Notes under the pieces: model-generated
Told to the model about the DNA's origin: nothing
Database searches by the model: none
What the model saw: the letters and a program-made list of their open reading frames with translations, nothing else
Virus record (IMG/VR): IMGVR_UViG_3300012920_000273
Span: 1-23,485 of that record
Source: a virus
Reading direction: 5' to 3' (one strand)
DNA length: 23,485 nt
Position numbers and translations under genes: made by a program
In this document: positions 2,811-14,928 of the stretch, piece by piece
How the letters are laid out: the number at the start of each line of letters is the position of its first letter
Numbering within the stretch: the stretch's first letter is position 1

Positions 2811-4325
2811 ATGGCAGTCACAATAGGTGATAATAGTCCCAATTCATATAGAATTCATAGTATTACTATTAGTAATCAAGAAGGTAATTCATATGAAATC
2901 AGTAATTTAATGCAGTCGTTTAGTATTACTGAGAGTATCTATCAGATGTTTCTTACTGGTAATATAACGATATTAGACGATATGAATGTATATAATCGTA
3001 TCGGATTTACTGGACAGGAATATATTCGGATACATATCAGTGGAATACAGGGGAATGAAGAAGACCCACCTGTAGATGAGCATATTGACCAAATATTTAG
3101 AATATTTAATGTTAAAATGCAAGTAAATACTCCGAAGAATGCTAAACTACAATTATATACTCTAGAATTTTGTAGTCCTTTATTATATTCTGCACGAACT
3201 CAGAGAATATCTCAGGCATATAGAGGCAAGACTGGAGATATATTAAATAAAATATGTAAGGATAAATTATTATTTACAGAGAGAGAAAAAGACTTGACAG
3301 GCCGTGTGAAAGAGGGGACAGAACTCGGTAACTTCTTTAGTGTCTTCGAGCATAGTGGGACAGAGGTGATAGGTACTGTAATACCTAATTGGAGTGTCTT
3401 TAAGACTCTGAGATACTTGAGAGATAAGACCACAGACAACTCAAAGAACTCAAGGCCTTGGGGAAACTCTTACTACTTCTATCAGACAGCCTCTGGTGGG
3501 TTTCGATTCCACAATGTAGGGGATATGTTAACCAATAAGTATCTCAACGACTCAGTGACTTTCAGGCCACGATTCTCTGATGGGGATAAGACGCTTAACT
3601 ATGATTTTGCCGATGGGACAGGGAATGATATACTATCTTATAATAAAGAAGACATTCATAATGTACTTCACAGTCATTTAGATGGTACTTACAGTGGTAT
3701 TATACAGGTATTTGATACAAAAAGCAAGACGCTTAATGTAATTGATAGCCAATTTTCTCAGCAATTCCCTCTAGATGGAGACTCTAAGTATGACTATAAG
3801 GCGCTCTCAGTCGCTCCATCATTCAGAACTGCACCAGAAGTAATCAAAGTACCACCAGATGGGGGTATAGAAGGGAGTGAATTAGACCCAGCAGTTACCT
3901 TTGGAGATGCAACAAAGACTAAGAGTATCTTAGAGACACAGAGCGCCATCACCTTTGACTATGATAATCCCTTTAACTTTACCAATGGAGTGCATAAGAG
4001 TGGGAATATGGCAGGGTCTGATGCACCACAGAAGTTTGATAGAGATAGAGTTGAGAGATTATTCGAGAACAATAGAGTTAGTATCCAGATATCTGGGAGA
4101 ACTAATATATCATGTGGTATGACTATTATGGTAGACATCAAGCAGCCCACACAGACAGCAGCTGATGTCAGAGATGAACTAACACATAATGGTAGGTTAC
4201 TTGTAGAAGGTATTACTTTCGTAGGTACACAGGATGGTCTCGAAACGCAACTCTCATGCACCACAGATGGATATCAAGACAACATGGATACATTCGTAGA
4301 CCATGAGATAGGAGTTGGAGATTAG
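2811..4325 (+). CDS. Baseplate hub protein, gp27-like
   Basis: This 504-residue protein opens with a beta-rich segment typical of hub proteins (SFSITESIYQMFLTGNITIL at about 36-55), where a strand pair describes a small perturbation of the tube-like fold. A comparable [20 protein letters not shown] occurs in T4 gp27. It contains GRTNISCGMTIMVDI near 430-445 and LLVEGITFVGTQDGLETQLS near 465-485, like the C-terminal hub strand pair of gp27. T4 gp27 is 391 residues and forms the trimeric ring that joins the gp5 needle to the tube. Position between gp53 and gp5 supports the hub role. The match is structural in feel rather than strong in sequence, so another hub paralogue is possible. AAGGA precedes the ATG, four bases after the gp53 stop. 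Confidence 0.65.
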   Translation: MAVTIGDNSPNSYRIHSITISNQEGNSYEISNLMQSFSITESIYQMFLTGNITILDDMNVYNRIGFTGQEYIRIHISGIQGNEEDPPVDEHIDQIFRIFNVKMQVNTPKNAKLQLYTLEFCSPLLYSARTQRISQAYRGKTGDILNKICKDKLLFTEREKDLTGRVKEGTELGNFFSVFEHSGTEVIGTVIPNWSVFKTLRYLRDKTTDNSKNSRPWGNSYYFYQTASGGFRFHNVGDMLTNKYLNDSVTFRPRFSDGDKTLNYDFADGTGNDILSYNKEDIHNVLHSHLDGTYSGIIQVFDTKSKTLNVIDSQFSQQFPLDGDSKYDYKALSVAPSFRTAPEVIKVPPDGGIEGSELDPAVTFGDATKTKSILETQSAITFDYDNPFNFTNGVHKSGNMAGSDAPQKFDRDRVERLFENNRVSIQISGRTNISCGMTIMVDIKQPTQTAADVRDELTHNGRLLVEGITFVGTQDGLETQLSCTTDGYQDNMDTFVDHEIGVGD

Positions 4326-4346
4326 TAGCCCTCAGCCACAGTGTTT

Positions 4347-4721
4347 TGGGACTCCTAAACTTTTTTCGCCATGCCTTTGAGATGGGGCCAAAAGTCTTGG
4401 GAAGTTGTGGGACTCCTAGAGTTTATCTGGGACTCCTAAATAATATTTAAATAGGGAGATTATATGTTAAAAAGTATATTAAATACCCATAGAACCATGA
4501 TGTATGAATTCATGGAAGTAACTGGGTTAGATGATTATGGATTAGCATGGTTTTGTTTTTTGAAAGGTGTAATATTTGCATCTATTATAGTATGGATTTT
4601 TTAAATGAGAAGATGTTTTTTGAATAGTAAGATACATGGTGCAGTTTGTACCGATGTGGATTTAGATTATGAAGGTAGTATATTAATAGACGAAGACTGG
4701 ATGGATGAGGTGGGACTCCTA
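4347..4721. repeat. Four copies of TGGGACTCCTA around the panD cassette
   Basis: An identical 11-mer occurs at 4347-4357, 4408-4418, 4428-4438 and 4711-4721. Three copies lie in the gap between the hub gene and the 46-codon gene; the fourth is inside panD, coding for part of VGLLI. The 11-mer is a near-dyad centred on its C (TGGGA / TAGGA half-sites), so it could be an operator, but it could also mark past recombination. A one-base variant (GGGGACTCCTA, 7435-7445) occurs in gp25. The gap (4326-4438) is about 49% G+C by hand count, richer than its surroundings. No tRNA, clear terminator or exact TATAAATA was seen in it; TTTAAATA at 4446-4453 is one base off the late-promoter consensus. Confidence 0.75.
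4464..4604 (+). CDS. 46-residue membrane microprotein of unknown function
   Basis: The reading frame runs from ATG 4464 to TAA 4602-4604. A clear ribosome site, AGGGAGA (4453-4459), sits four bases before the ATG. The protein starts with a short amphipathic, basic and Met-rich part (LKSILNTHRTMMYEFMEVTG), then a small acidic turn (LDDYG), then a hydrophobic stretch from about residue 27 to the end (LAWFCFLKGVIFASIIVWIF). This suggests one C-terminal membrane segment. The stop codon abuts the panD ATG (TAAATG), so translation of the two genes is probably coupled; panD itself has no convincing ribosome site. No family is recognised. A structural, membrane-contact or holin-like role cannot be told apart from sequence alone. 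Confidence 0.7.
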   Translation: MLKSILNTHRTMMYEFMEVTGLDDYGLAWFCFLKGVIFASIIVWIF

Positions 4722-5012
4722 ATCCACGAACAGGTCGATGTTTATAATAAAACTAATGGTAACCGACATACAACCTATGTGTTACCACTACCAAGAGGTT
4801 CAAATGAGGTATCAGTCAATGGTGCTGGTGCTCATTTGACCAATATAGGAGATGAATTAATTATTTGTTCCTATTGTTATATACATGATGGGAGTGATGG
4901 ACATAAAATGAAATATCATTCTCCAAGAATTAAAATAATCGACCCTAAAGACCGAATTTATAGAGAACTTTTGGGTCTGGACAAACCGAAACAGATAGAG
5001 GATAAGAAATAA
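4605..5012 (+). CDS. panD: Aspartate 1-decarboxylase (PanD) homologue, phage-encoded
   Basis: PanD is a pyruvoyl enzyme that turns L-aspartate into beta-alanine and CO2, feeding pantothenate and CoA synthesis. The proenzyme cuts itself between Gly24 and Ser25, and Ser25 becomes the pyruvoyl cofactor. Here DYEGSILID puts Gly24-Ser25 at exactly those positions. Other residues known from E. coli PanD also fall at their usual numbers: Lys9 and His11 (NSKIHG), Tyr22, Arg54, Thr57 and Tyr58 (GNRHTTY), and Asn72 in SVNGAGAH. Length is 135 residues (E. coli 126), with a short charged C-terminal tail. The whole double-psi barrel seems present, so an active enzyme is expected. It abuts the 46-codon gene upstream and overlaps gp5 by one base (TAATG), so it should be translated with the hub genes. 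A structural reuse of the fold is the main alternative. Confidence 0.93.
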   Translation: MRRCFLNSKIHGAVCTDVDLDYEGSILIDEDWMDEVGLLIHEQVDVYNKTNGNRHTTYVLPLPRGSNEVSVNGAGAHLTNIGDELIICSYCYIHDGSDGHKMKYHSPRIKIIDPKDRIYRELLGLDKPKQIEDKK

Positions 5013-6118
5013 TGGCAAACTTTACAGGACTGGGAAGTAATTTCTACACAGGAGTGGTCGAAGACCGATTTGACCCACTATCCTTGGGTCGTGTTCGTGT
5101 CCGAATATATGGATTACATACCGATGATAAGAAATTAATCTCTACAGGTGATTTACCATGGTCTGATGTCCTTATGCCGACCACTTCTCCGAGTATTTCT
5201 GGGATGGGTCTTTCTCCACATGGTTTAGTGGATGGTTCTACTGTTATGGGATTTTTCCGAGACGAGGGAGATATGCAAGACTTCGTGGTGATTGGAAGTC
5301 TCTTTGGTAGACCCTCTGATAAATTTAAAATACCGAATAACGATGGAGATAAGGCAATCAGTCGTGGGCCCGATAAAGGATTTAATGACTCTCGTTATCC
5401 AACCAGAGAGGCATATTTTGCAGGCCCTGATGCAACAAAAAATTCTAGTACTGGAAGAAACTTTGAGTTATCCAGACATAGAGATGGAAATACAAGTATT
5501 GGATGGCCTTATAGACCGAGAGAAATAGAACAGAACTTGGATGGGTCTGGTACAAAAATTGATGGTAATGAGAGAGTAAGAAAAGTTCCTGGCGAGTCCT
5601 ATCCAAAAGAAGAATATACTAAAAAACAACTTTCCGATGTCAATAAAATGGCACAGGGTGTTTACGATGCATATCCGAATAATTTTATTAAAAAATCAGA
5701 AGGTAGTACAGTAAAAGAATTACCTCGTAAAGGTAATGTTGGGCCAGTGTATCCTTATAATCATGTTATAGAATCTGAGTCTGGTCATGTCATAGAAATG
5801 GATGATACTCCATCTAAAGAAAGATTACACTTATATCACCGAACTGGTACAAGACTTGAAGTCCTTGCAGATGGGTCTCAAACTATGAAAGTCATGAACG
5901 ACTCTTACGAAATAGTATTAAAAGATAAAAAAATATTAATTGCTGGTAGTGCAGATATAGAACTTGCAAATGGTGATTATAATTTAATTACTAAAAAAGG
6001 AACTAAGAAAGATGCTGGTAATGTATTTATTACTACCGATGGTGATTGTAATATTACTTCCTCTGGTGCAATTAAATTAAAAGGTAATGTATCATTAAAT
6101 GGTACTAAGTACGATTAA
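5012..6118 (+). CDS. 5: Baseplate hub/needle protein, gp5-like, without visible lysozyme domain
   Basis: The first 110 residues form the gp5/VgrG OB-fold: FYTGVVEDRFDPLSLGRVRV (about 11-30), then DLPWSDVLMPTTSP and MGFFRDEGDMQDFVVIGSLFG. A polar linker with no hydrophobic lysozyme core follows (about 115-245). The C-terminal part (about 246-368) has the hub signature HVIESESGHVIEMDDTPSKE and HRTGTRLEVLADGS, then short beta repeats rich in D, G and N (KKILIAGSADIELANGDYNL) that fit the start of the needle beta-helix. T4 gp5 is 575 residues with a lysozyme inserted between OB-fold and helix; this protein is 368 and seems to lack it. AGAGGATAAG precedes the ATG, which overlaps the panD stop. In the virion it would form the trimeric cell-puncturing needle under the gp27-like ring. 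Confidence 0.85.
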   Translation: MANFTGLGSNFYTGVVEDRFDPLSLGRVRVRIYGLHTDDKKLISTGDLPWSDVLMPTTSPSISGMGLSPHGLVDGSTVMGFFRDEGDMQDFVVIGSLFGRPSDKFKIPNNDGDKAISRGPDKGFNDSRYPTREAYFAGPDATKNSSTGRNFELSRHRDGNTSIGWPYRPREIEQNLDGSGTKIDGNERVRKVPGESYPKEEYTKKQLSDVNKMAQGVYDAYPNNFIKKSEGSTVKELPRKGNVGPVYPYNHVIESESGHVIEMDDTPSKERLHLYHRTGTRLEVLADGSQTMKVMNDSYEIVLKDKKILIAGSADIELANGDYNLITKKGTKKDAGNVFITTDGDCNITSSGAIKLKGNVSLNGTKYD

Positions 6119-7224
6119 TGACAACCTCTAATGAACCAGTTAAAGTCCCATGTCCGAAGGTTGTTAAACCAACTGCTGATGACCTAGAAAAAATAATAAT
6201 TTTTATTGGGAATCAATATGGTTGGGAATATATTAAACCTCTTGAAGAATTATTAGGTGCATTTCCTTTATCTCATTCTTGGGATGGTATTACTTTAGAT
6301 ATACCAGAATTAGAATGGGAAGGAAAAATACAATGTATTATTGAAGAATTTAAATTATATCCTTTAGTAAAAATTGCAGAAGTATTCAGTAAAATAATAC
6401 CAGTTCCTTTAGTTGTTGTAGAACCAATTACAGGTATATCAGTTGATGTACCTAAATTAGTACAAGACCCAGATTACAAAGCAAAACTCTTAACAGAATT
6501 CCAAGAAGCTGGTGATGAGATATTAGATTTATTTGTTCCAGATTTTATTCTAGAAAACTGGGATGGTACAGATGGTATCGATGCACCAGCAATTAAAATG
6601 AGTAAAGCATGGAAAGAGTTTGTTGCAAAAATAAAAGAATTATTTCAAGGTAATATTTTTGGTACACTAGCAGAAATATTAAAAGACTCTGCTCTTGAAG
6701 CTGCAATAGAAGCAATTAAAGCAGTTGGAAGTCCATTCACAGATTATCTAGATTTATTAATAAGTTTGCCAGGCATGGTTGTAAGTGGTGGTCAATTAGA
6801 TTTTGATACCGATGCATTTCTTATGGGATTAAAAAAACAATTTAAAGAAGCAGGTAAAGATTTCCAAGAAGAATTACTTGCATACCCTTTACCAGTAGTA
6901 TCAGAAATAGCTCCTCAGGCAGAATTAGTAGGACTCGATTTACCAGAGACATTAGGTGACTTAATTGATTTAGAAGAAATAGGTGAGTTTAAAAAAGTAG
7001 ATTTTCCAAACTGGAATATAGATAAGTTAAGAGACAGAATTGATAACTTCATAAGAAATCTACCTCAAATGTTACTTGAAGCAGTTCTAGAAAAACTTTC
7101 AAAATATCTTGGGATGCTTATACCATCTGGTATACCGATACCATTTACTCTATGTTCGTTCTTAGAGTTTCTTGGTTTTCCAAAAGAGATATCTGTTTCT
7201 AATCTAGTACTAGAAGGGACATAA
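6118..7224 (+). CDS. Unknown baseplate-operon protein, mostly helical
   Basis: This 368-residue protein has no family that I recognise. It is acidic and rich in Leu, Ile, Glu and Pro. Many segments look helical (for example ADDLEKIIIFIGNQYGWEYI near 20-39 and ALEAAIEAIKAVGSPFTDYL near 200-219), with hydrophobic stretches such as ISLPGMVVSGG and a hydrophobic C-terminus (LGMLIPSGIPIPFTLCSFLE, then LGFPKEISVSNLVLEGT). No signal peptide is seen. It starts at an ATG overlapping the gp5 stop by one base and has no clear ribosome site, so it is probably made by coupling to gp5. Position between gp5 and gp25 suggests a virion or tail-assembly role, perhaps a hub, tape-measure or chaperone partner; this is inference from position. 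Confidence 0.8.
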   Translation: MTTSNEPVKVPCPKVVKPTADDLEKIIIFIGNQYGWEYIKPLEELLGAFPLSHSWDGITLDIPELEWEGKIQCIIEEFKLYPLVKIAEVFSKIIPVPLVVVEPITGISVDVPKLVQDPDYKAKLLTEFQEAGDEILDLFVPDFILENWDGTDGIDAPAIKMSKAWKEFVAKIKELFQGNIFGTLAEILKDSALEAAIEAIKAVGSPFTDYLDLLISLPGMVVSGGQLDFDTDAFLMGLKKQFKEAGKDFQEELLAYPLPVVSEIAPQAELVGLDLPETLGDLIDLEEIGEFKKVDFPNWNIDKLRDRIDNFIRNLPQMLLEAVLEKLSKYLGMLIPSGIPIPFTLCSFLEFLGFPKEISVSNLVLEGT

Positions 7225-7232
7225 ATAATAGT

Positions 7233-7649
7233 ATGAGTGATTTAATTGGAAACAAGACTAGTATAACTGCAAGACGATGGTATACAGACATCGACTTAAA
7301 TTTGACTGCACATCCTAACTCAAAAGACTTAACTCTTAAACAGGATGTTGAGTCAGTCAAAAGGTCACTAAGAAATATTATGTTGACCAATAAATATGAG
7401 AGACCCTTTAAACCAAACTTTGGTGCAAATCTTAGGGGACTCCTATTTGAACTTGCAGATGATATTACGAAATATGAAATGAGGAATCAGATAATAGAAG
7501 CAATCCAAGATTATGAACCTAGAGTAAAAATTGACGAAATATATTTAAATCAAGATAGAGCAAATAGAATGTATGTTAATATCCACTTTGGGGTTAGAGG
7601 TGTAAGAGAACCTCAAGAAATTGAAGTAATATTACAGAGAGTAAGATAA
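7233..7649 (+). CDS. 25: Baseplate wedge protein, T4 gp25 family
   Basis: This 138-residue protein closely fits T4 gp25 (132 residues), the wedge subunit that seeds the sheath. Landmarks are DIDLNLTAHP (about 20-29), DVESVKRSLRNIMLTNKYER (about 39-58), PFKPNFGANLRGLLFELAD (about 59-77) with the family-wide P-F-x-P-x-F-G pattern, and EAIQDYEPRVKIDEI (about 89-103). The same fold is found in type VI secretion (TssE) and other contractile machines. In T4 it binds gp6 and gp53 in the wedge core and starts the sheath through a handshake strand. The ribosome site is weak (AAGGG about 14 bases upstream). The next gene starts one base after the stop, so gp25 and gp6 are likely translated together. 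Confidence 0.93.
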   Translation: MSDLIGNKTSITARRWYTDIDLNLTAHPNSKDLTLKQDVESVKRSLRNIMLTNKYERPFKPNFGANLRGLLFELADDITKYEMRNQIIEAIQDYEPRVKIDEIYLNQDRANRMYVNIHFGVRGVREPQEIEVILQRVR

Positions 7650-7650
7650 A

Positions 7651-9519
7651 ATGGCAGTCAAAAGTTCACAAGTCAATATCACCGATTTAGATTTCGAAGA
7701 TATTGCAGCTAATCTAAAAGAATATTTAAAGGGTCAAAAGACTCTAAAAGACTATGACTTTGAAGGGAGTAACATTAGTTTACTCATAGACCTTCTTGCA
7801 TATAGTTCACATGTATCAGCATTCAATGCAAACATGGTTGCATCTGAGTTGTTCTTGGATACAGCACAAATAAGAAAGAATGTAGTATCTCGTGCAAAAG
7901 AAATAGGATATACTCCTACGAGTGCAACTGCCTCAATGGCAACAATTGATTTACAGGTAAATAATCCTTTAATAGGTGGTGAGACTCCTACCTCGTTAAC
8001 TCTTAATAGAGGTCATGAATTTAAAACAATATTTGATGGATTTAATTATCCATATGTTTTATTAGAATCAAAAACAATCAGTCCACTAAATGGTGTTTAC
8101 TTATTTGAAGACCTTGAAATTTATCAAGGGTCTATGAACTCTGATATCTTTCTATATAATGGACAAATCCAAAATCAAAGATTTCCATTAACCGAAGAAC
8201 TGGTTGACACCTCAAGTGTTACAGTTACAATAGAATCAACAGGTGGTTCATCATCTGCATGGTCTCAATCTACAGACATTAGTTCAGTGGACAAGAATAG
8301 TAAAGTATGGTATGTTCAAGAAAATGAACAAGGACAATTTGAGGTATACTTTGGTGATGGTGTCATTAGTGCAGAACCTTTGGATGGGGATAAGATTACA
8401 ATCTCATATCTAGTAACAAATAAAGACCATACTAATGGTGCAACATCATTTACCATGACAGACTCAATTGGTGGTAATGCAGATGTAACTTTAATTAATA
8501 AGACTGCATCTTCTGGTGGTAAGGATAAAGAAAGTATCGAATCAATTCGATTTGCAGCTTCTAAGTTTTATACATCACAAAATAGATTAGTCACAGTAGA
8601 TGACTACAAATCAAAATTACAAACATTATATCCTGGCGCAGATTCCATATCAGTTTGGGGTGGAGAAGATAATGAACCACCACAATATGGAAAAATATTT
8701 ATTGCAATCAAACCTGGCCAGAATGTAAACAAATTAACAAGTTCTGAAAAAGTTTTACTTAAAGACAAATTAAAATCACTAAATATGTTAACAGTTAGAC
8801 CAGAATTAGTTGATGCAGATATTATTGATATTATAGTCAATAGTAACTTTAAGTACAACCCTCGTGCAACAACTAAAACTGTATCTGAACTGGAAACACT
8901 GGTAAGGGCTGCAATCATTACACATGACAGTACCTATCTCAGTGGGTTTGATAGTATCTTTAGGCACTCAGTTCTAGCAAGAGACATAGACAGTGCAGAA
9001 TCTTCGATTCTCTCGAACACTACAACTGTCAAACTTAGAAAAACATTGACTCCTACATTGGGTCAATCAAAAGGTTACACAGTCGAATTTGGTGCTGGTA
9101 ACTCATTCTATAATCCACATACAGGACACAATAAACATGGTGGTGGTATTACGACTACTACTGGATTTACTGTATCTGGATTCACCGAAACATTCTACTT
9201 TGACGATGATGGGGAAGGAAACCTAAGACGATATTCATTAAGTGGTTCAACAAGAATCTATGCAGATAGTCAAGCAGGAATAGTAGATTATTCAAATGGT
9301 AAAATAACAATTAATGGTGTTAACATATTAACAACATCTAACACCGATGATACAATTCACTTTACAGTGATTCCGAATTCATATGATGCAGTTGCATTTA
9401 GAAGTAACCTTCTAGACATCAACACATCATTGATAAGTGTGACTGGTGCAACAGACACCATCGCATCTGGTGATACGAGTGCTGGGGTAGGATATACATC
9501 CTCATCTAGTTACTCCTAA
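7651..9519 (+). CDS. 6: Baseplate wedge protein, T4 gp6 family
   Basis: At 622 residues it is close to T4 gp6 (660), which forms dimers that close the wedges into the inner baseplate ring. The N-terminus has the family pattern: NITDLDFEDIAANLKEYLKG (about 9-28), then LKDYDFEGSNISLLIDLLAY (about 32-51), then NANMVASELFLDTAQIRKNV (about 59-78) and AKEIGYTPTSA. The middle carries YVQENEQGQFEVYFGDG and SSGGKDKESIESIRFAASKF before TVDDYKSKL, typical of gp6/baseplate J-type proteins. The C-terminal 120 residues are Gly/Ser/Thr-rich and more variable, as is usual in marine phages. It starts one base after the gp25 stop and ends before an 81-base gap with hairpins, which may mark a transcript boundary. 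Confidence 0.93.
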   Translation: MAVKSSQVNITDLDFEDIAANLKEYLKGQKTLKDYDFEGSNISLLIDLLAYSSHVSAFNANMVASELFLDTAQIRKNVVSRAKEIGYTPTSATASMATIDLQVNNPLIGGETPTSLTLNRGHEFKTIFDGFNYPYVLLESKTISPLNGVYLFEDLEIYQGSMNSDIFLYNGQIQNQRFPLTEELVDTSSVTVTIESTGGSSSAWSQSTDISSVDKNSKVWYVQENEQGQFEVYFGDGVISAEPLDGDKITISYLVTNKDHTNGATSFTMTDSIGGNADVTLINKTASSGGKDKESIESIRFAASKFYTSQNRLVTVDDYKSKLQTLYPGADSISVWGGEDNEPPQYGKIFIAIKPGQNVNKLTSSEKVLLKDKLKSLNMLTVRPELVDADIIDIIVNSNFKYNPRATTKTVSELETLVRAAIITHDSTYLSGFDSIFRHSVLARDIDSAESSILSNTTTVKLRKTLTPTLGQSKGYTVEFGAGNSFYNPHTGHNKHGGGITTTTGFTVSGFTETFYFDDDGEGNLRRYSLSGSTRIYADSQAGIVDYSNGKITINGVNILTTSNTDDTIHFTVIPNSYDAVAFRSNLLDINTSLISVTGATDTIASGDTSAGVGYTSSSSYS

Positions 9520-9526
9520 ACTATGA

Positions 9527-9544
9527 TTCATGTGTATGCATGAA
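9527..9544. other. Small hairpin after gp6
   Basis: TTCATG (9527-9532) and CATGAA (9539-9544) are inverted around a 6-base loop. It lies just after the gp6 stop. No T run follows, so it is not a terminator on its own; it could stabilise the gp6 message end. Confidence 0.4.
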
Positions 9545-9552
9545 GTAACATT

Positions 9553-9570
9553 CCCACATGGTGTGGGTTT
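9553..9570 (+). terminator. Possible weak terminator after gp6
   Basis: CCCACA (9553-9558) pairs with TGTGGG (9562-9567) around TGG, and TTT-A-T follows. The stem is G+C-rich and short. The T run is only three bases, so termination would be partial. It may separate the wedge-core genes from the gp7-gp8 group. Confidence 0.4.
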
Positions 9571-9577
9571 ATAAAAT
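9570..9577 (+). promoter_or_regulatory. Possible late promoter variant TATAAAAT
   Basis: TATAAAAT is one or two bases from the TATAAATA late consensus and lies 23 bases before the ATG at 9601, in the only gap between gp6 and the next gene. A strong ribosome site, AGAGAGGA, follows. The mismatch keeps confidence low. Confidence 0.35.
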
Positions 9578-9600
9578 GCTAAATTAGAGAGGAACTAAAA

Positions 9601-10068
9601 ATGGCAGATAAAAAAGTAACAGCATTGTCCGACTTAGGGACAGGCATCGCAGGTGAAGACTTGCTTCATGTTATTGACGACCCTTCTGGTACTCCAGTAA
9701 ACAAAAAGGTTTCAGTCAGTAATATTTTAAACAACCTTCCAGACTACCTTGGATTTGCAGATTCAGCTGAAGCAGTATCGTTCAGTTCAAACGCTGCAAC
9801 TGCAACTGCTGGAAAATGGGCACACTACTTAACTTCAAGTTCAAGTGGTACAGACATCCTTACATTACCAAATGGTTCTACAGGACAAATCAAATACTTT
9901 GTTCTAGTAAGTGATGGTGGTAGTTCTCCAAGAGTAACTCCTTCTGGTACATTTACTGGTGGTTCATATGTTGCACTTGATAGTGCTGGGGACAGTGTAC
10001 AAATGTTGTATACAGGTTCAACATATGGTTGGGTTGTTATAGGTGGTAACTCTTACACTGTAGCATAA
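9601..10068 (+). CDS. Small virion-type protein with a fibre-like N-terminal motif
   Basis: This 155-residue protein starts [20 protein letters not shown] and continues [20 protein letters not shown]. This motif recurs at the start of many phage tail-fibre, decoration and appendage proteins, where it makes a small beta adaptor. The rest (about 55-155) is Gly/Ser/Thr-rich with short beta strands ([34 protein letters not shown]), like a fibre-tip or capsid-decoration domain with a jelly-roll-like pattern. It has no signal peptide or cysteine. AGAGAGGA precedes the ATG. Lying between gp6 and the gp7-position protein it is probably a virion surface protein attached to the baseplate, but that role is inferred. 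T4 has no gene at this place. Confidence 0.8.
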
Positions 10069-10077
10069 GGATAGAAT

Positions 10078-13000
10078 ATGCCCATTCTCAATGATAGATT
10101 AACCGACCAACTTCATGAACTCCTACCAGAGTACATGCAAGAAGAAGGTCAAGGTTTTCAGAAGTTTCTAACTGCATACTTCGATTTTCTTGAGAAGGGT
10201 ATCCTTATATACAAAGAGGGTACAGACCTAGAACAAATAGGTTTAGAAGATGGGGAAGGAAGTCTTCTTCAAGAGAGAGGAACTTTCGACCCATCTCCTT
10301 TATCTAAAGCAAAAATAAACTACGAACAAGATACAATAGGAAATGTTCAAACAGGTTCGTGGGAAATTGGTGAATATGTAGTTGGTTCAACATCTGGTGC
10401 AACTGCAAGAATCGATGTTATTGGTGAGACATCCAATAAACTATATGTCGAAGTATTTACCGAATCACAATTTTTACCAGATGAAACAATCGTTGGACAG
10501 AATAGTGGATACACTGCAAAGACAAGTTCTTTTGAGGGTGGTGCATTATTCGCTGCAAACAATTTATTAGATTATGCAGATGTAGATAGAACTACAGGAG
10601 ACTTTTTGGAATACTTCCGAAGAGACTTTATGCCTTCGATTGATACAGATATTCTTGCAGATAAAAGATTACTTGCAAAACACATTAATAATATCTATCT
10701 TGCAAAAGGTAGTATGGCATCATATGATTTTCTATTTAGAGTTTTATTCAATGAGGATATCTCAATTAGTTATCCAAAAGATAATGTCGTATCTCCATCC
10801 AATTCAAAGTGGACAGAATCAACAGTAGTACATTTACATTCAGAGAAAAATTTACTTGATTATGCAAAAGGTAAAATAGTTAAAAAGAACATCGAACAAA
10901 AAGTAATCACCGAGATACAAGCAGATACAATTACAAGAGTTACTTCTGGAGAAGGAGATAATGTTTACCGAGTAGTAATCATGGAGCCTTTTATAGGTTC
11001 ATTAATTATTGGTGATACAGTAGAATTACAATCAAGAACAGATAGTGCAAAATTTTATAATGCAACAGTCAGAGGTATAATATCAGACCTTGACGATACC
11101 GAAGGTAATGTTTTAATTAGACTTGAATCTGGAACAGGTACAGGATTTTTTGCATCTGAGTCCGATGACTCAGAAGGTATCGAATTAGAATCTGCAACCT
11201 CAAATCCAGTTGCTGGAACAAACAACTTAATTCTTTTAGAGGAAGGAACACAAACAGATAACTCCCTCAATGAGGTTCATGGTAAAACACCAATCATGGT
11301 TAGAGAATCAGTTAATACTGCAAACTCAGAAGCTGTAATTGGTGGTGCAATGAAATCCGAAGAAGTATCAAGAGGTGCATTGTATACTAACTCAGAAAAT
11401 GTTCAAGTTAATTTACCACAATCAGAACTTGGTGTTGGTCAGTTTGCAAAGACACTTGTAGGTGAAGTACAAGATTCTAAAGTAGAAAAAATTATAGTAG
11501 ACCCTAGTAACAGAGGAACAGGATATAGTGATGGAGACCTAGTTGTATTTGATAATACCGATTCTGGTGGAACACTTGCACAAGGTGTAATTACATCTAC
11601 ATCTGGAGATATACTTTTAGAAAGTGGAACAACATTTGGTTCATTTGAATTTACTGCTGATGCAAACCAAACTACATTCTCTGGAAAAGACAAACACGAT
11701 AATCTTTTAGTTTACGATGCAGAAAAAGTTATGGTCAGAGTTAAGAGGTCAGATGAATCTCAGAACATAACTGCACAGGGTGGTTCAGTTTCATTCTCAG
11801 TATTTGAAGAAGTACGAGGAGCTGCAAATATAGGATTGAATGGTCAGTCAATTGTTTTCCTAGGAGACTATGCAAACAATACTCATGCAAAATATGTTGG
11901 ACAGGCTGGAACAGTTATAGAAGTATTTGCAGAACCAGAAGAAACAACTTTAATTCTAGAAGATGGATTACAGTCAACAGGAGAAAACAAATTACTTTAT
12001 GACCAGTCTGGTGCAAACCCAACAGGTTCAGTATCAAGAGTTAGAGTCACAACAAGTGGTGTAGGATATACATCTTTACCTAGAGCATATGCTGGTGGTG
12101 AAGTATTCTATTCAGAAAAAATCACACCTAACTTTACAATCGGAGAAAATATTACATCTGGAACTACGACAGGAGTTTTGGTTGACCACGATAAAGGTGC
12201 AAATAAACTTGTCATAGGTAAACTACAAACTACAACAGATACATCCACTTATGTTGTAGGTAATACAGTTACAGGAAGTGTATCTGGTGCAACTGCAACA
12301 GTGACACAAAACAGTTTTACAACAGGAACAGGAGTTAAACTATTACCTTATGGGGATAGTATAGGTCAGATTGGTTCACTTAGAGTTATAGAAGAAGGAA
12401 ACCATTTTGACAAGTCCTCTGGTATCCCAGAGTTTAGACATCATTTTATTTTTGGTAGAGCATCTGCAACACCTATAGTTGATACAACAGTAACAGGAGA
12501 CTTTAGTAATGCAACAGGTCAGATTAAATTTGTAGACAACGATAAAGGATTAATCTCTATAGATGTTACAGAAGGGTTCTTTAAAAACAATGAAACATTA
12601 ACTGCATCCGATGGAAAAACTTTTCAATTACTAGATGGTAATCCAGCAACAGTCAGTGCAAAAAATAATTCTATTTCTAAGATAGATGGAAACTATACAA
12701 GTGATGTGGGTTTTGCATCGTCTACTGCAAATAGAATTCACGACTCGAAATTTTATCAAGACTTCTCATATGTAATTAAAGTTGGTCAAAGTATTAATAG
12801 ATATCGTTCAGTTGTACAACAACTATTAAATCCAGCTGGTACAATTTTCTTTGGAGAGGTTGTAATTAAAAACCTAATTCAAGCAAGTGCAATCACATAT
12901 CGTTCTGGTTCAAACACAGAAGGGTTTGATGGAGATAGAGTTACTAGGTCATTTATACCAACACTTATTATTGGTTCTAAGATTGACCCAGCAAAAATTA

Positions 13001-14928
13001 TTTTAGAAGAAGGAACAGTTGCATCTGGAGAAGAAGATGTCTTCTATGCAGAAGAACAAAATATAATTTTAGAAGATACATCTGGTGTTGCAGTAACAGA
13101 AAGATTTATTGCAGATGATAGATTATCATTAGCAATTAGTACAACAGGTATGTCTCCATCTGGTTCAACATCATTTACAGTTGGTGAAACAGTATCACAG
13201 AATTTATTTAAAACTGCAAGTGGTGATATTGGAACAATTCTAGGTAGAGTTGTATCAAGTAATAGTACAACATTAGTTATAGACCAAATCAGACCAGACC
13301 ATACTGCAATGAAACAATTAACTTCCGAAGGTGGAAGGTCTGGTATCTATAGTCTATTTAAAGAAACACATGGTGATTGGAAAACAGACCAATCAGATAC
13401 CGATATAGAATTTGTACATGGTATCGTTGGTCAATCGTCTGGTTCAAAGGCAATAGTCAATACAGTAACAGATGCAAGTGTAAAAACAGACCAAGGTTCT
13501 GGTCAAGCATTTATTGTTGGAGAAGATATTACAGAATCCGATGTTGGATTATATGACAGAATTATTCGTGCAAATGTAACTGCACATGGTCATGAAGTAG
13601 TTAAGGAGATAGAGATATATCCTCACTATGCACATCACCGAATCTATTATAACACTTTAGACAATGCATTGTCAATAGGTCAAACCATAAAAAATAATGG
13701 TAAGTTAGGTCGTGTTATGGAACATGATACAGTTAATAAATTTATCATTGTCTGGTCTGGCTCAGATGCATTTGGTTCAAATGTAGGAAACTTTACTGCA
13801 AGTGCAGTAACAAATGAATCTGGTGGGACAACACACTTCACTGCAACATCAATAGAAATGCATCATGTCCACGAGATGATAGTAGACTTTTCTTTAGGTC
13901 ATAATTCTCCAGTAGTAACTCCACCTCAGAACCAAGTGGTTGACCCAGAGAATAATATTGGTGCGCCAGGCACACTTGACCCTAATGCATTCTTTAAAGC
14001 ATCTGAATTCTATGAAGGTGCAAACAGACAACAAAGAAAGAACATTACAATATTAAAAACATTTGCAAGTGCAAATACAAAGTCTGGTAGAACATTAACA
14101 GTAGTTCCAATATCTAAGGAAGATGCAAACCAACAAGGATTAAGAGGTAGTGCAAATGCAACTACAATTGCAACAGTTGGTGGATTAGATTGGGGTGAAA
14201 CAATTAAGAGTGCAAATAGAGATTCTATAATTAATAACCTTGCAACAGGAAATAGTAATCACTTAGTTCCATCCGATGCAAAAAGAATCAACTCAGTTGC
14301 AAATGTTGATGAAGAATTTATTATAACAGAAGATGGTTCATATTTAGTAGAAGAACCAGACCATGGTTTCTTGATGGCAGAACCAGAACCAGAAAAATAT
14401 AATTCATATACTACATCCGATGGTCATTATTATGTTGGAGACCTATGGTCAGTAGACCCAACAGAAGAACTAACATTAGAAAATGGTGGTCGACTTGCAC
14501 TAGAAGAGGCAACAGATTTAGAAAAACGAGAAAGATTTGTGACCGAGAGGTCATTTAACTTAGGTTCATATTTTACTATGACCGAAGACCAAGATACACT
14601 TATATTTGAGGATGGTGGTAGAATCATTCAAGAAAATGCAGTTTCATTTGGTGAACCAGTCGAAAGACTTGGCCCAACACTGGGTGACCTTGCAAAAATA
14701 GGATTCTCTCAAACCCTTAAATTTGAGGAAAGGATTACACAGGAAGATGGTGATAACATTCTCATGGAGAGTGAAGCAGGTAGATTACTTGTAGAAGCAC
14801 CATATGAAGGTGTAAAAATTAGTGATATAAGTACTTTATATCCAAAACAAAGTATTTCTGATTTACAGGAACACAAAGGTAGAACAATGGTATTAAATTA
14901 TCCTGCTTCTGTACAATCTGGTGTATAA
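10078..14928 (+). CDS. 7: Giant baseplate wedge protein in the gp7 position
   Basis: At 1616 residues this is much longer than T4 gp7 (1032), the wedge initiator that binds gp10, gp8 and gp6. The N-terminal helical part (PILNDRLTDQLHELLPEYMQ, then FQKFLTAYFDFLEKG) and the segment at about 163-238 (FLEYFRRDFMPSIDTDIL, KRLLAKHINNIYLAKGSMAS, FLFRVLFNEDISISYPK) are those of the marine phage protein found between gp6 and gp8. The rest is beta-rich modules: GEYVVGSTSGATARIDVIGE near 97-116, FTIGENITSGTTTGV, VVGNTVTGSVSGATATV and others. Near the end short LTLENGGRLALEE and LIFEDGGRIIQEN repeats recur (about 1465-1578). AAGGA precedes the ATG. The gp7 name rests mainly on order; the sequence link to T4 gp7 is weak. 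Confidence 0.7.
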   Translation: MPILNDRLTDQLHELLPEYMQEEGQGFQKFLTAYFDFLEKGILIYKEGTDLEQIGLEDGEGSLLQERGTFDPSPLSKAKINYEQDTIGNVQTGSWEIGEYVVGSTSGATARIDVIGETSNKLYVEVFTESQFLPDETIVGQNSGYTAKTSSFEGGALFAANNLLDYADVDRTTGDFLEYFRRDFMPSIDTDILADKRLLAKHINNIYLAKGSMASYDFLFRVLFNEDISISYPKDNVVSPSNSKWTESTVVHLHSEKNLLDYAKGKIVKKNIEQKVITEIQADTITRVTSGEGDNVYRVVIMEPFIGSLIIGDTVELQSRTDSAKFYNATVRGIISDLDDTEGNVLIRLESGTGTGFFASESDDSEGIELESATSNPVAGTNNLILLEEGTQTDNSLNEVHGKTPIMVRESVNTANSEAVIGGAMKSEEVSRGALYTNSENVQVNLPQSELGVGQFAKTLVGEVQDSKVEKIIVDPSNRGTGYSDGDLVVFDNTDSGGTLAQGVITSTSGDILLESGTTFGSFEFTADANQTTFSGKDKHDNLLVYDAEKVMVRVKRSDESQNITAQGGSVSFSVFEEVRGAANIGLNGQSIVFLGDYANNTHAKYVGQAGTVIEVFAEPEETTLILEDGLQSTGENKLLYDQSGANPTGSVSRVRVTTSGVGYTSLPRAYAGGEVFYSEKITPNFTIGENITSGTTTGVLVDHDKGANKLVIGKLQTTTDTSTYVVGNTVTGSVSGATATVTQNSFTTGTGVKLLPYGDSIGQIGSLRVIEEGNHFDKSSGIPEFRHHFIFGRASATPIVDTTVTGDFSNATGQIKFVDNDKGLISIDVTEGFFKNNETLTASDGKTFQLLDGNPATVSAKNNSISKIDGNYTSDVGFASSTANRIHDSKFYQDFSYVIKVGQSINRYRSVVQQLLNPAGTIFFGEVVIKNLIQASAITYRSGSNTEGFDGDRVTRSFIPTLIIGSKIDPAKIILEEGTVASGEEDVFYAEEQNIILEDTSGVAVTERFIADDRLSLAISTTGMSPSGSTSFTVGETVSQNLFKTASGDIGTILGRVVSSNSTTLVIDQIRPDHTAMKQLTSEGGRSGIYSLFKETHGDWKTDQSDTDIEFVHGIVGQSSGSKAIVNTVTDASVKTDQGSGQAFIVGEDITESDVGLYDRIIRANVTAHGHEVVKEIEIYPHYAHHRIYYNTLDNALSIGQTIKNNGKLGRVMEHDTVNKFIIVWSGSDAFGSNVGNFTASAVTNESGGTTHFTATSIEMHHVHEMIVDFSLGHNSPVVTPPQNQVVDPENNIGAPGTLDPNAFFKASEFYEGANRQQRKNITILKTFASANTKSGRTLTVVPISKEDANQQGLRGSANATTIATVGGLDWGETIKSANRDSIINNLATGNSNHLVPSDAKRINSVANVDEEFIITEDGSYLVEEPDHGFLMAEPEPEKYNSYTTSDGHYYVGDLWSVDPTEELTLENGGRLALEEATDLEKRERFVTERSFNLGSYFTMTEDQDTLIFEDGGRIIQENAVSFGEPVERLGPTLGDLAKIGFSQTLKFEERITQEDGDNILMESEAGRLLVEAPYEGVKISDISTLYPKQSISDLQEHKGRTMVLNYPASVQSGV

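Follow-up and report, generated by a model that had tools for sequence, protein, structure and literature searches.

We analyzed a 23,485-nucleotide stretch of viral DNA (IMG/VR record IMGVR_UViG_3300012920_000273, positions 1 to 23,485; hereafter, the window) in which a gene for aspartate 1-decarboxylase, panD, sits among phage baseplate genes. The features of the locus are as follows.

2811-4325, plus strand: tail protein of phrog_350 (PHROGs), forming the upstream flank; we call it gp27-like.
4348-4357, plus strand: first copy of the 10-mer GGGACTCCTA, upstream of the promoter-like element.
4409-4418, plus strand: second copy of GGGACTCCTA, upstream of the promoter-like element.
4429-4438, plus strand: third copy of GGGACTCCTA, 20 bp past the second and overlapping the promoter-like element.
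4436-4442, plus strand: CTAAATA, a T4-type late-promoter-like element upstream of sORF46 and panD.
4464-4604, plus strand: sORF46, a 46-residue ORF directly 5' of panD, with a C-terminal stretch that is hydrophobic by eye.
4605-5012, plus strand: panD, aspartate 1-decarboxylase, 135 residues with an ATG start (Pfam, NCBIfam, PDB, fold, and residue checks).
4674-4679, plus strand: codons of Gly24 and Ser25, the self-cleavage site predicted from the family, which would yield chains of 24 and 111 residues.
4712-4721, plus strand: copy of GGGACTCCTA inside panD, across the codons of G37, L38, and L39.
5012-6118, plus strand: gp5-type baseplate hub (Gp5_OB), the downstream flank, whose start overlaps the panD stop.
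7233-7649, plus strand: gp25 baseplate wedge, containing GGGACTCCTA at 7436.
7651-9519, plus strand: gp6 baseplate wedge, used as a clade marker independent of PanD.

The same order, with sORF46 before panD and gp5 after it, was found in the window and in 35 related loci (L001-L035). Because the gap between sORF46 and panD varies from 4 to 351 nt, other small ORFs can intervene. In all of these stretches, phage genes flank panD on both sides, as an auxiliary metabolic gene should be flanked. An earlier note, made from the sequence of the window alone, had placed the gene in a phage baseplate setting, and the gp27-like gene upstream and the gp5-type hub, gp25, and gp6 downstream bear this out.

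By sequence and predicted fold, positions 4605-5012 hold a full and apparently intact PanD, as that note had also proposed. The protein matched the Pfam family PF02261 (Asp_decarbox) over residues 1 to 118 with 118 bits (cutoff, 25), and its nearest PDB entry by sequence was 1ppy, the precursor of Escherichia coli PanD (E = 4.5e-23). The score for the NCBIfam equivalog TIGR00223 (107.9 bits versus a cutoff of 106) was only just over, with a margin of 2 bits, and PHROGs returned no family for the protein at an E value of 0.001. The residues expected for processing and catalysis (K9, H11, Y22, G24-S25, R54, T57, Y58, and N72) were all present at the E. coli numbering. We then turned to AlphaFold models built on a 28-sequence alignment. 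The top model had a mean pLDDT of 85.2 and a pTM of 0.79; the remaining four had pLDDT values of 85.1, 77.3, 69.3, and 35.7. The predicted fold is a double-psi beta-barrel, as in solved PanD structures, and it superimposed on unprocessed E. coli PanD with Z scores of 18 to 19 and deviations of 1.6 to 2.0 Å over 112 to 113 residues (for 1ppy_B, Z = 18.8 and 1.6 Å over 112 residues). In the VIA comparison, the PanD chains listed scored Z = 11.0 to 18.9, versus 9.6 for the best non-PanD double-psi barrels (p97 type). A closer kinship with a nonenzyme double-psi barrel, which the earlier note had named as grounds for giving up the assignment, is thereby not supported.

To characterize the distribution of the gene, we scanned IMG/VR and recovered PanD relatives at 45 loci on 45 separate contigs, the largest of which (146,136 bases; hereafter, the 146-kb contig) held one match. 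At least one neighbor was homologous to a window gene in 41 of the 45 loci, giving a baseplate setting as in the window. Four loci with PanD 61 to 62% identical (L039-L042) had none of the 13 other window query genes in the surrounding stretch. In L042, phoH-like and then peptidase-like ORFs (by eye) lie downstream of panD, while ribonucleotide reductase-like ORFs (by eye) and a Pfam AMP-binding enzyme lie further upstream, and these neighbors look metabolic. L042 belongs to a different phage type; two of its adjoining ORFs near panD (3785-6017), the first being the AMP-binding enzyme, could use an amino acid substrate.

Presence and absence were surveyed by gp6 rather than by PanD, so as not to sample only PanD loci. 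From the best 80 of 178 candidate stretches, we classed the 53 with a gp6 identity of at least 50%; the other 27, with an identity below 45%, were left unclassed. Among the 27 stretches with a gp6 identity of at least 82%, 17 spanned the slot from gp27 to gp5, and all 17 carried both panD and sORF46; a piece of panD lay at the contig edge in 2 of the remaining 10. Neither gene was present in any of the 16 spanning loci of the next clades (3 at 74 to 75%, 1 at 59%, and 12 at 50 to 54% gp6 identity). Likewise, a PanD match was found in none of the 10 whole contigs lacking panD at the locus, one of which is a 147,284-base record. A single gain of panD at the base of the clade is the simplest reading.

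Strict pairing of sORF46 with panD was contradicted by one contig, L218, which came from a motif scan and lies outside the 17 spanning loci. This contig matches L044 (98.8% identity) across gp53, the gp27-like gene, and sORF46, and the match stops just after the panD start codon begins. L218 thus carries the upstream GGGACTCCTA array and sORF46 without panD. What follows (2938-14915) is some 12 kb of other ORFs, including, by eye, neck, sheath, tube, and portal genes; panD, gp5, gp25, and gp6 were all unmatched on L218, a chance-level piece of panD (E = 0.32) aside. L218 is therefore either a chimeric assembly or a rearrangement in which the entire block was removed, and not a case in which only panD was lost.

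One further copy came from a 30-kb contig (L051) in a Synechococcus metagenome-assembled genome (MAG; NYUU01000001.1), where panD again accompanies a phage baseplate region. Since its neighbors are the same phage genes, L051 is viral DNA that was binned with the MAG, and it does not prove that the host is a cyanobacterium; the rest of the approximately 1.6-Mb MAG had no second PanD match. In the phage collection, gp6 relatives occurred in 2,345 records and PanD relatives in 15, none of the 15 being named as a marine phage. We rejected the panD of Acinetobacter "phage MD-2021a" as a phage gene, given its neighbors pth, rplY, and prsA (in one of two records); that record (L206, 1-5330), with pth, rplY, prsA, and panD, appears to be bacterial chromosome. 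PanD matches in records of Listeria, Escherichia, Salmonella, Staphylococcus, and Enterococcus phages may be host DNA.

The active site is conserved throughout the phage sequences. Among 40 full-length rows (39 loci plus the window, with the six loci cut by a contig end, L036-L038 and L043-L045, excluded), 35 were distinct, and all 35 kept the nine processing and catalytic residues, as did L051. The C-terminal tail beyond about residue 112 is variable and is absent in some members, and the reading frame is open for at least 112 codons in all 39 complete copies and the window. Across L001-L035, panD had the lowest median pairwise dN/dS of nine genes (0.140), with medians of 0.202 for gp6, 0.220 for gp25, 0.222 for gp53, 0.327 for gp5, and 0.334 for the gp27-like gene; these ratios are rough because synonymous sites are near saturation. 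Pairs with dS outside 0.05 to 2.5 were dropped, which retained 586 of 595 pairs for panD. Median pairwise identity in the same loci was 86% for panD, 64% for gp5, and 55% for the gp27-like protein. By these comparisons, panD is evidently kept by purifying selection within the phage lineage.

The gene pair is also marked by its upstream sequence. We take TATAAATA and CTAAATA to represent the T4-type late-promoter consensus. All 36 loci had TAAATA in the 70 nt preceding sORF46, versus a background of 5.2% of 70-mers, the elements being C/T-TAAATA in 26 loci and TATAAATA in 10. It was equally regular within 70 nt of gp48 (19/19) and gp25 (22/22), and it was not seen in the 70 nt before gp53, the gp27-like gene, gp5, gp6, orf155, or gp7. 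Directly upstream of panD itself, it was found in 3 of 36 loci. On the 146-kb contig, TATAAATA preceded gp48, the head closure gene, gp8, ORFs near the capsid gene, and some ORFs outside the structural part. Counting either TATAAATA or CTAAATA, 16 of the 144 ORFs of at least 80 residues on this contig had an element upstream. By contig part, the counts were 8/57, 5/79, and 3/8, the middle part holding replication and other genes, and since 5 of the 79 ORFs in that replication part carry an element, it is not confined to structural genes. Overall, the TAAATA element fits a T4-type late promoter, and its placement suggests that sORF46 and panD start a late transcript of their own, possibly running into gp5.

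A second signal is the repeated 10-mer. Upstream of sORF46, GGGACTCCTA occurred in exactly three exact copies in 33 of 36 loci (two, four, or five in the others), the last two copies being mostly 19 to 21 bp apart. Within panD, it was exact in 31 of 36 loci and present with at most one mismatch in all 36. The 146-kb contig has four copies, all at the panD locus, versus about 0.05 expected per strand. The copies in panD and gp25 both read GGA CTC CTA, encoding Gly-Leu-Leu. Paired copies were found in 98 viral stretches; of 90 new loci examined, 30 had panD and 60 did not, the latter including two of the panD clade (L218 and the cut-off L259). Because paired copies occur in many other viral contigs, the 10-mer is wider than the panD clade. 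In sister-clade loci L102-L104, copies lie between gp5 and gp25.

At the GGGACTCCTA site within panD, V36, G37, and L38 each use a single codon in 36 of 36 rows. As a special property of the site, this codon freezing was weakened by a control. One-codon residues made up 3/36 in panD and 3/70 in gp5, versus 6/29 in gp25, 65/195 in gp6 (24 rows), and 14/45 in gp53 (25 rows, including one run of seven), so that gp25, gp6, and gp53 freeze more. The observation that still holds is the occurrence of one rare 10-mer both upstream of and within panD.

The clade belongs to the T4-like marine phages, with pelagimyophages and Melnitz as its relatives. The gp6 of the window is 42% identical to that of Melnitz, 40% to that of HTVC008M, and 41% to that of Mosig; for the gp23 of the 146-kb contig (GC content, 34%), the values are 68%, 64%, and 62%. 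Melnitz infects OM43, and HTVC008M and Mosig infect SAR11. None of these three isolates is among the 15 phage records with PanD; infection of their hosts thus does not depend on the enzyme. An Rfam search of the 146-kb contig matched a glutamine riboswitch. Such a riboswitch is also described for Melnitz (excerpted text of PMC9004378), and for pelagimyophages a riboswitch search is described as finding none (excerpted text of PMC7029224). A curlin-repeat protein on the contig (23.8 bits versus 20.7) is a weak link to Melnitz, since that phage is given as having csgF and csgG and as lacking csgA and csgB (excerpted text of PMC9004378). On the same contig (L068, 4352-8244), a protein with CHASE2 and adenylate/guanylate cyclase domains, the curlin-repeat protein, and a FecR-domain protein are encoded close together.

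We know of no cultured host for the panD-bearing clade. The tRNA-Ala was best matched in alphaproteobacterial phages, the tRNA-Asp in a Klebsiella phage (over 71% of the tRNA length), and IscA (plasmids only) provided no clear signal. The host is probably, though not provably, a streamlined marine heterotroph.

To place the phage genes relative to bacterial ones, as the earlier note had recommended, we constructed a tree of 98 rows, 36 of them from phages (35 plus L051) and the rest sampled from Bacillota, Bacteroidota, Cyanobacteriota, and a few plasmid or phage-collection sequences. The 36 phage rows formed a single clade of their own (support, 100/98) on a long stem of 1.74 changes per column, apart from the PanD sequences of phages Jace and 2-1. 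Nearest to this group were Agrobacterium PanD (95/61) and then three gammaproteobacterial sequences (80/95); neither fork is starred, and branches are long throughout. The best bacterial identity seen was about 50%, in Clostridia, from a pattern-based scan that is biased toward residues in common with the query.

What could a phage gain from this enzyme? Vitamin B5 and coenzyme A (CoA) are built in part from beta-alanine, and PanD is best known for its role in pantothenate synthesis. Taken together, the sequence and model evidence makes it probable that panD encodes a functional pyruvoyl-dependent aspartate 1-decarboxylase and that, as an auxiliary metabolic gene of a single T4-like marine phage clade, it supplies a CoA precursor. 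PanD would be made late in infection, along with gp5, and would cleave itself between Gly24 and Ser25. The mature enzyme would convert aspartate to beta-alanine, which host PanC could join to pantoate, raising pantothenate and CoA. Late expression would be unusual for a gene that boosts metabolism.

The gain would be greatest in a host that lacks PanD while possessing PanB and PanC. Table A2 of PMC7142369 lists this combination for three SAR11 genomes (HTCC1062, HTCC7211, and IMCC9063), each with one KPHMT, one PS, and no ADC, PYD3, or panZ; that is, homologs of PanB and PanC without PanD. In a host of this type, the phage enzyme would have to mature without PanZ. In an excerpt of PMC13198564, a SAR11 medium contains pantothenate at 1 µmol/L and four other named vitamins at 1 nmol/L each. 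The earlier note had suggested that PanD would matter most in hosts with incomplete pantothenate pathways; this is plausible, with the caveat that the host of the clade is not established. Yeast can derive beta-alanine from spermine. A SAR11 spermine/thermospermine synthase has been demonstrated through expression in E. coli (excerpted text of PMC11107197). With that synthase and a route like the yeast one, the SAR11 beta-alanine gap may not be total.

A fuller version of the proposal is that PanD closes the sole missing step between aspartate and the PanB/PanC pathway of the host, that the infected cell, otherwise reliant on external beta-alanine or pantothenate, thereby becomes self-sufficient for CoA, and that the late promoter is marked by the GGGACTCCTA array, with one site within panD. 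We regard this combination as tentative, and as a whole it may well not hold. The usual view of phage metabolic genes is that they reinforce steps already present in the host. If the fuller version is true, the virus would supply a missing vitamin-precursor step, which makes it a testable case. If the host is SAR11-like, viral gene content would be tied to a gap in a host vitamin pathway, and CoA supply would become a candidate factor limiting open-ocean phage production.

Despite this fit, an active PanD might serve ends other than host CoA, such as modification with beta-alanine, use of beta-alanine as an osmolyte, or removal of aspartate. Pointing in this direction, panD in L042 is close to genes for the AMP-binding enzyme and for a Nol-like carbamoyltransferase, which could act on an amino acid, and no other pantothenate gene was seen in a family-library scan of 8 of the 171 listed ORFs of the 146-kb contig. 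In the T4-like clade, however, no such partner gene was recognized beside panD, and the best-known role of the enzyme also argues for pantothenate; we consider these other uses rather unlikely. It is also conceivable that PanD is a part of the virion or of baseplate assembly, a double-psi barrel recruited between gp27 and gp5 whose catalytic residues were kept for some other reason. Its constant position before gp5 in 17 of 17 spanning loci and the late-promoter-like element of the sORF46-panD pair speak for such a part. Yet all 35 distinct rows share the same catalytic residues, a constancy that a structural role would not require. Moreover, the baseplate genes are shared with the next clades, which have no panD, and the four contigs L039-L042 have the protein with none of the 13 other query genes nearby; in L042, the one examined of the four, the neighbors look metabolic. 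A structural function is thus quite improbable. That panD is a cellular fragment, a misassembly, or a decaying passenger without function is scarcely credible: the T4-like isolates in the phage collection yielded no PanD, but the gene recurs on 45 separate contigs (one of 146 kb), is flanked by sORF46 and gp5 in the window and L001-L035, has a median dN/dS of 0.14, and is open for at least 112 codons in the window and all 39 complete copies, and the contig count, dN/dS, and VIA Z scores likewise leave pseudogene, contamination, and nonenzyme-barrel readings unsupported.

As regards known systems, the predicted fold, Gly-Ser cleavage site, catalytic residues, and core length are like those of bacterial PanD (E. 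coli and Mycobacterium tuberculosis); the differences from the E. coli enzyme include W47 to Y, I60 to L, and A88 to C. The earlier note knew of no PanD established as a phage gene, which was not quite right. Two isolated phages, the Gordonia/Rhodococcus phage Jace (gp87) and Achromobacter phage 2-1, carry annotated PanD, so that phage-borne PanD is a known kind. These proteins differ from that of the window in being 32 to 34% identical and falling outside its clade in the tree, and their genomes measure 54 and 83 kb, with panD adjoining exonuclease/ParB or RNase H/DNA polymerase genes. Because the phage 2-1 protein (L205, 2495-2890) has H in place of R54 and N72 in the alignment, it may not be a normal aspartate decarboxylase. 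Among marine phages, the S-adenosylmethionine decarboxylase (speD) of cyanophages is a pyruvoyl-dependent decarboxylase as well, of a different family and with a different substrate. Prochlorococcus phage P-HM2 (L050, 6175-6633) has an annotated 4'-phosphopantetheinyl transferase, which is CoA linked, about 2 kb before gp25 and thus likewise on the baseplate side.

Metabolic genes of pelagimyophages are discussed in PMC7029224, in whose main text the terms "decarboxylase," "pantothen," and "panD" each occur zero times. In the open-access literature, supplements apart, we found no clade-wide PanD with full catalytic residues and a late-promoter-like element in T4-like marine phages. In its genomic placement, the gene resembles the auxiliary metabolic genes of cyanophages and pelagimyophages, which are likewise cargo in the plastic parts of T4-like genomes; HTVC008M and Mosig carry different cargo genes, between gp5 and gp25.
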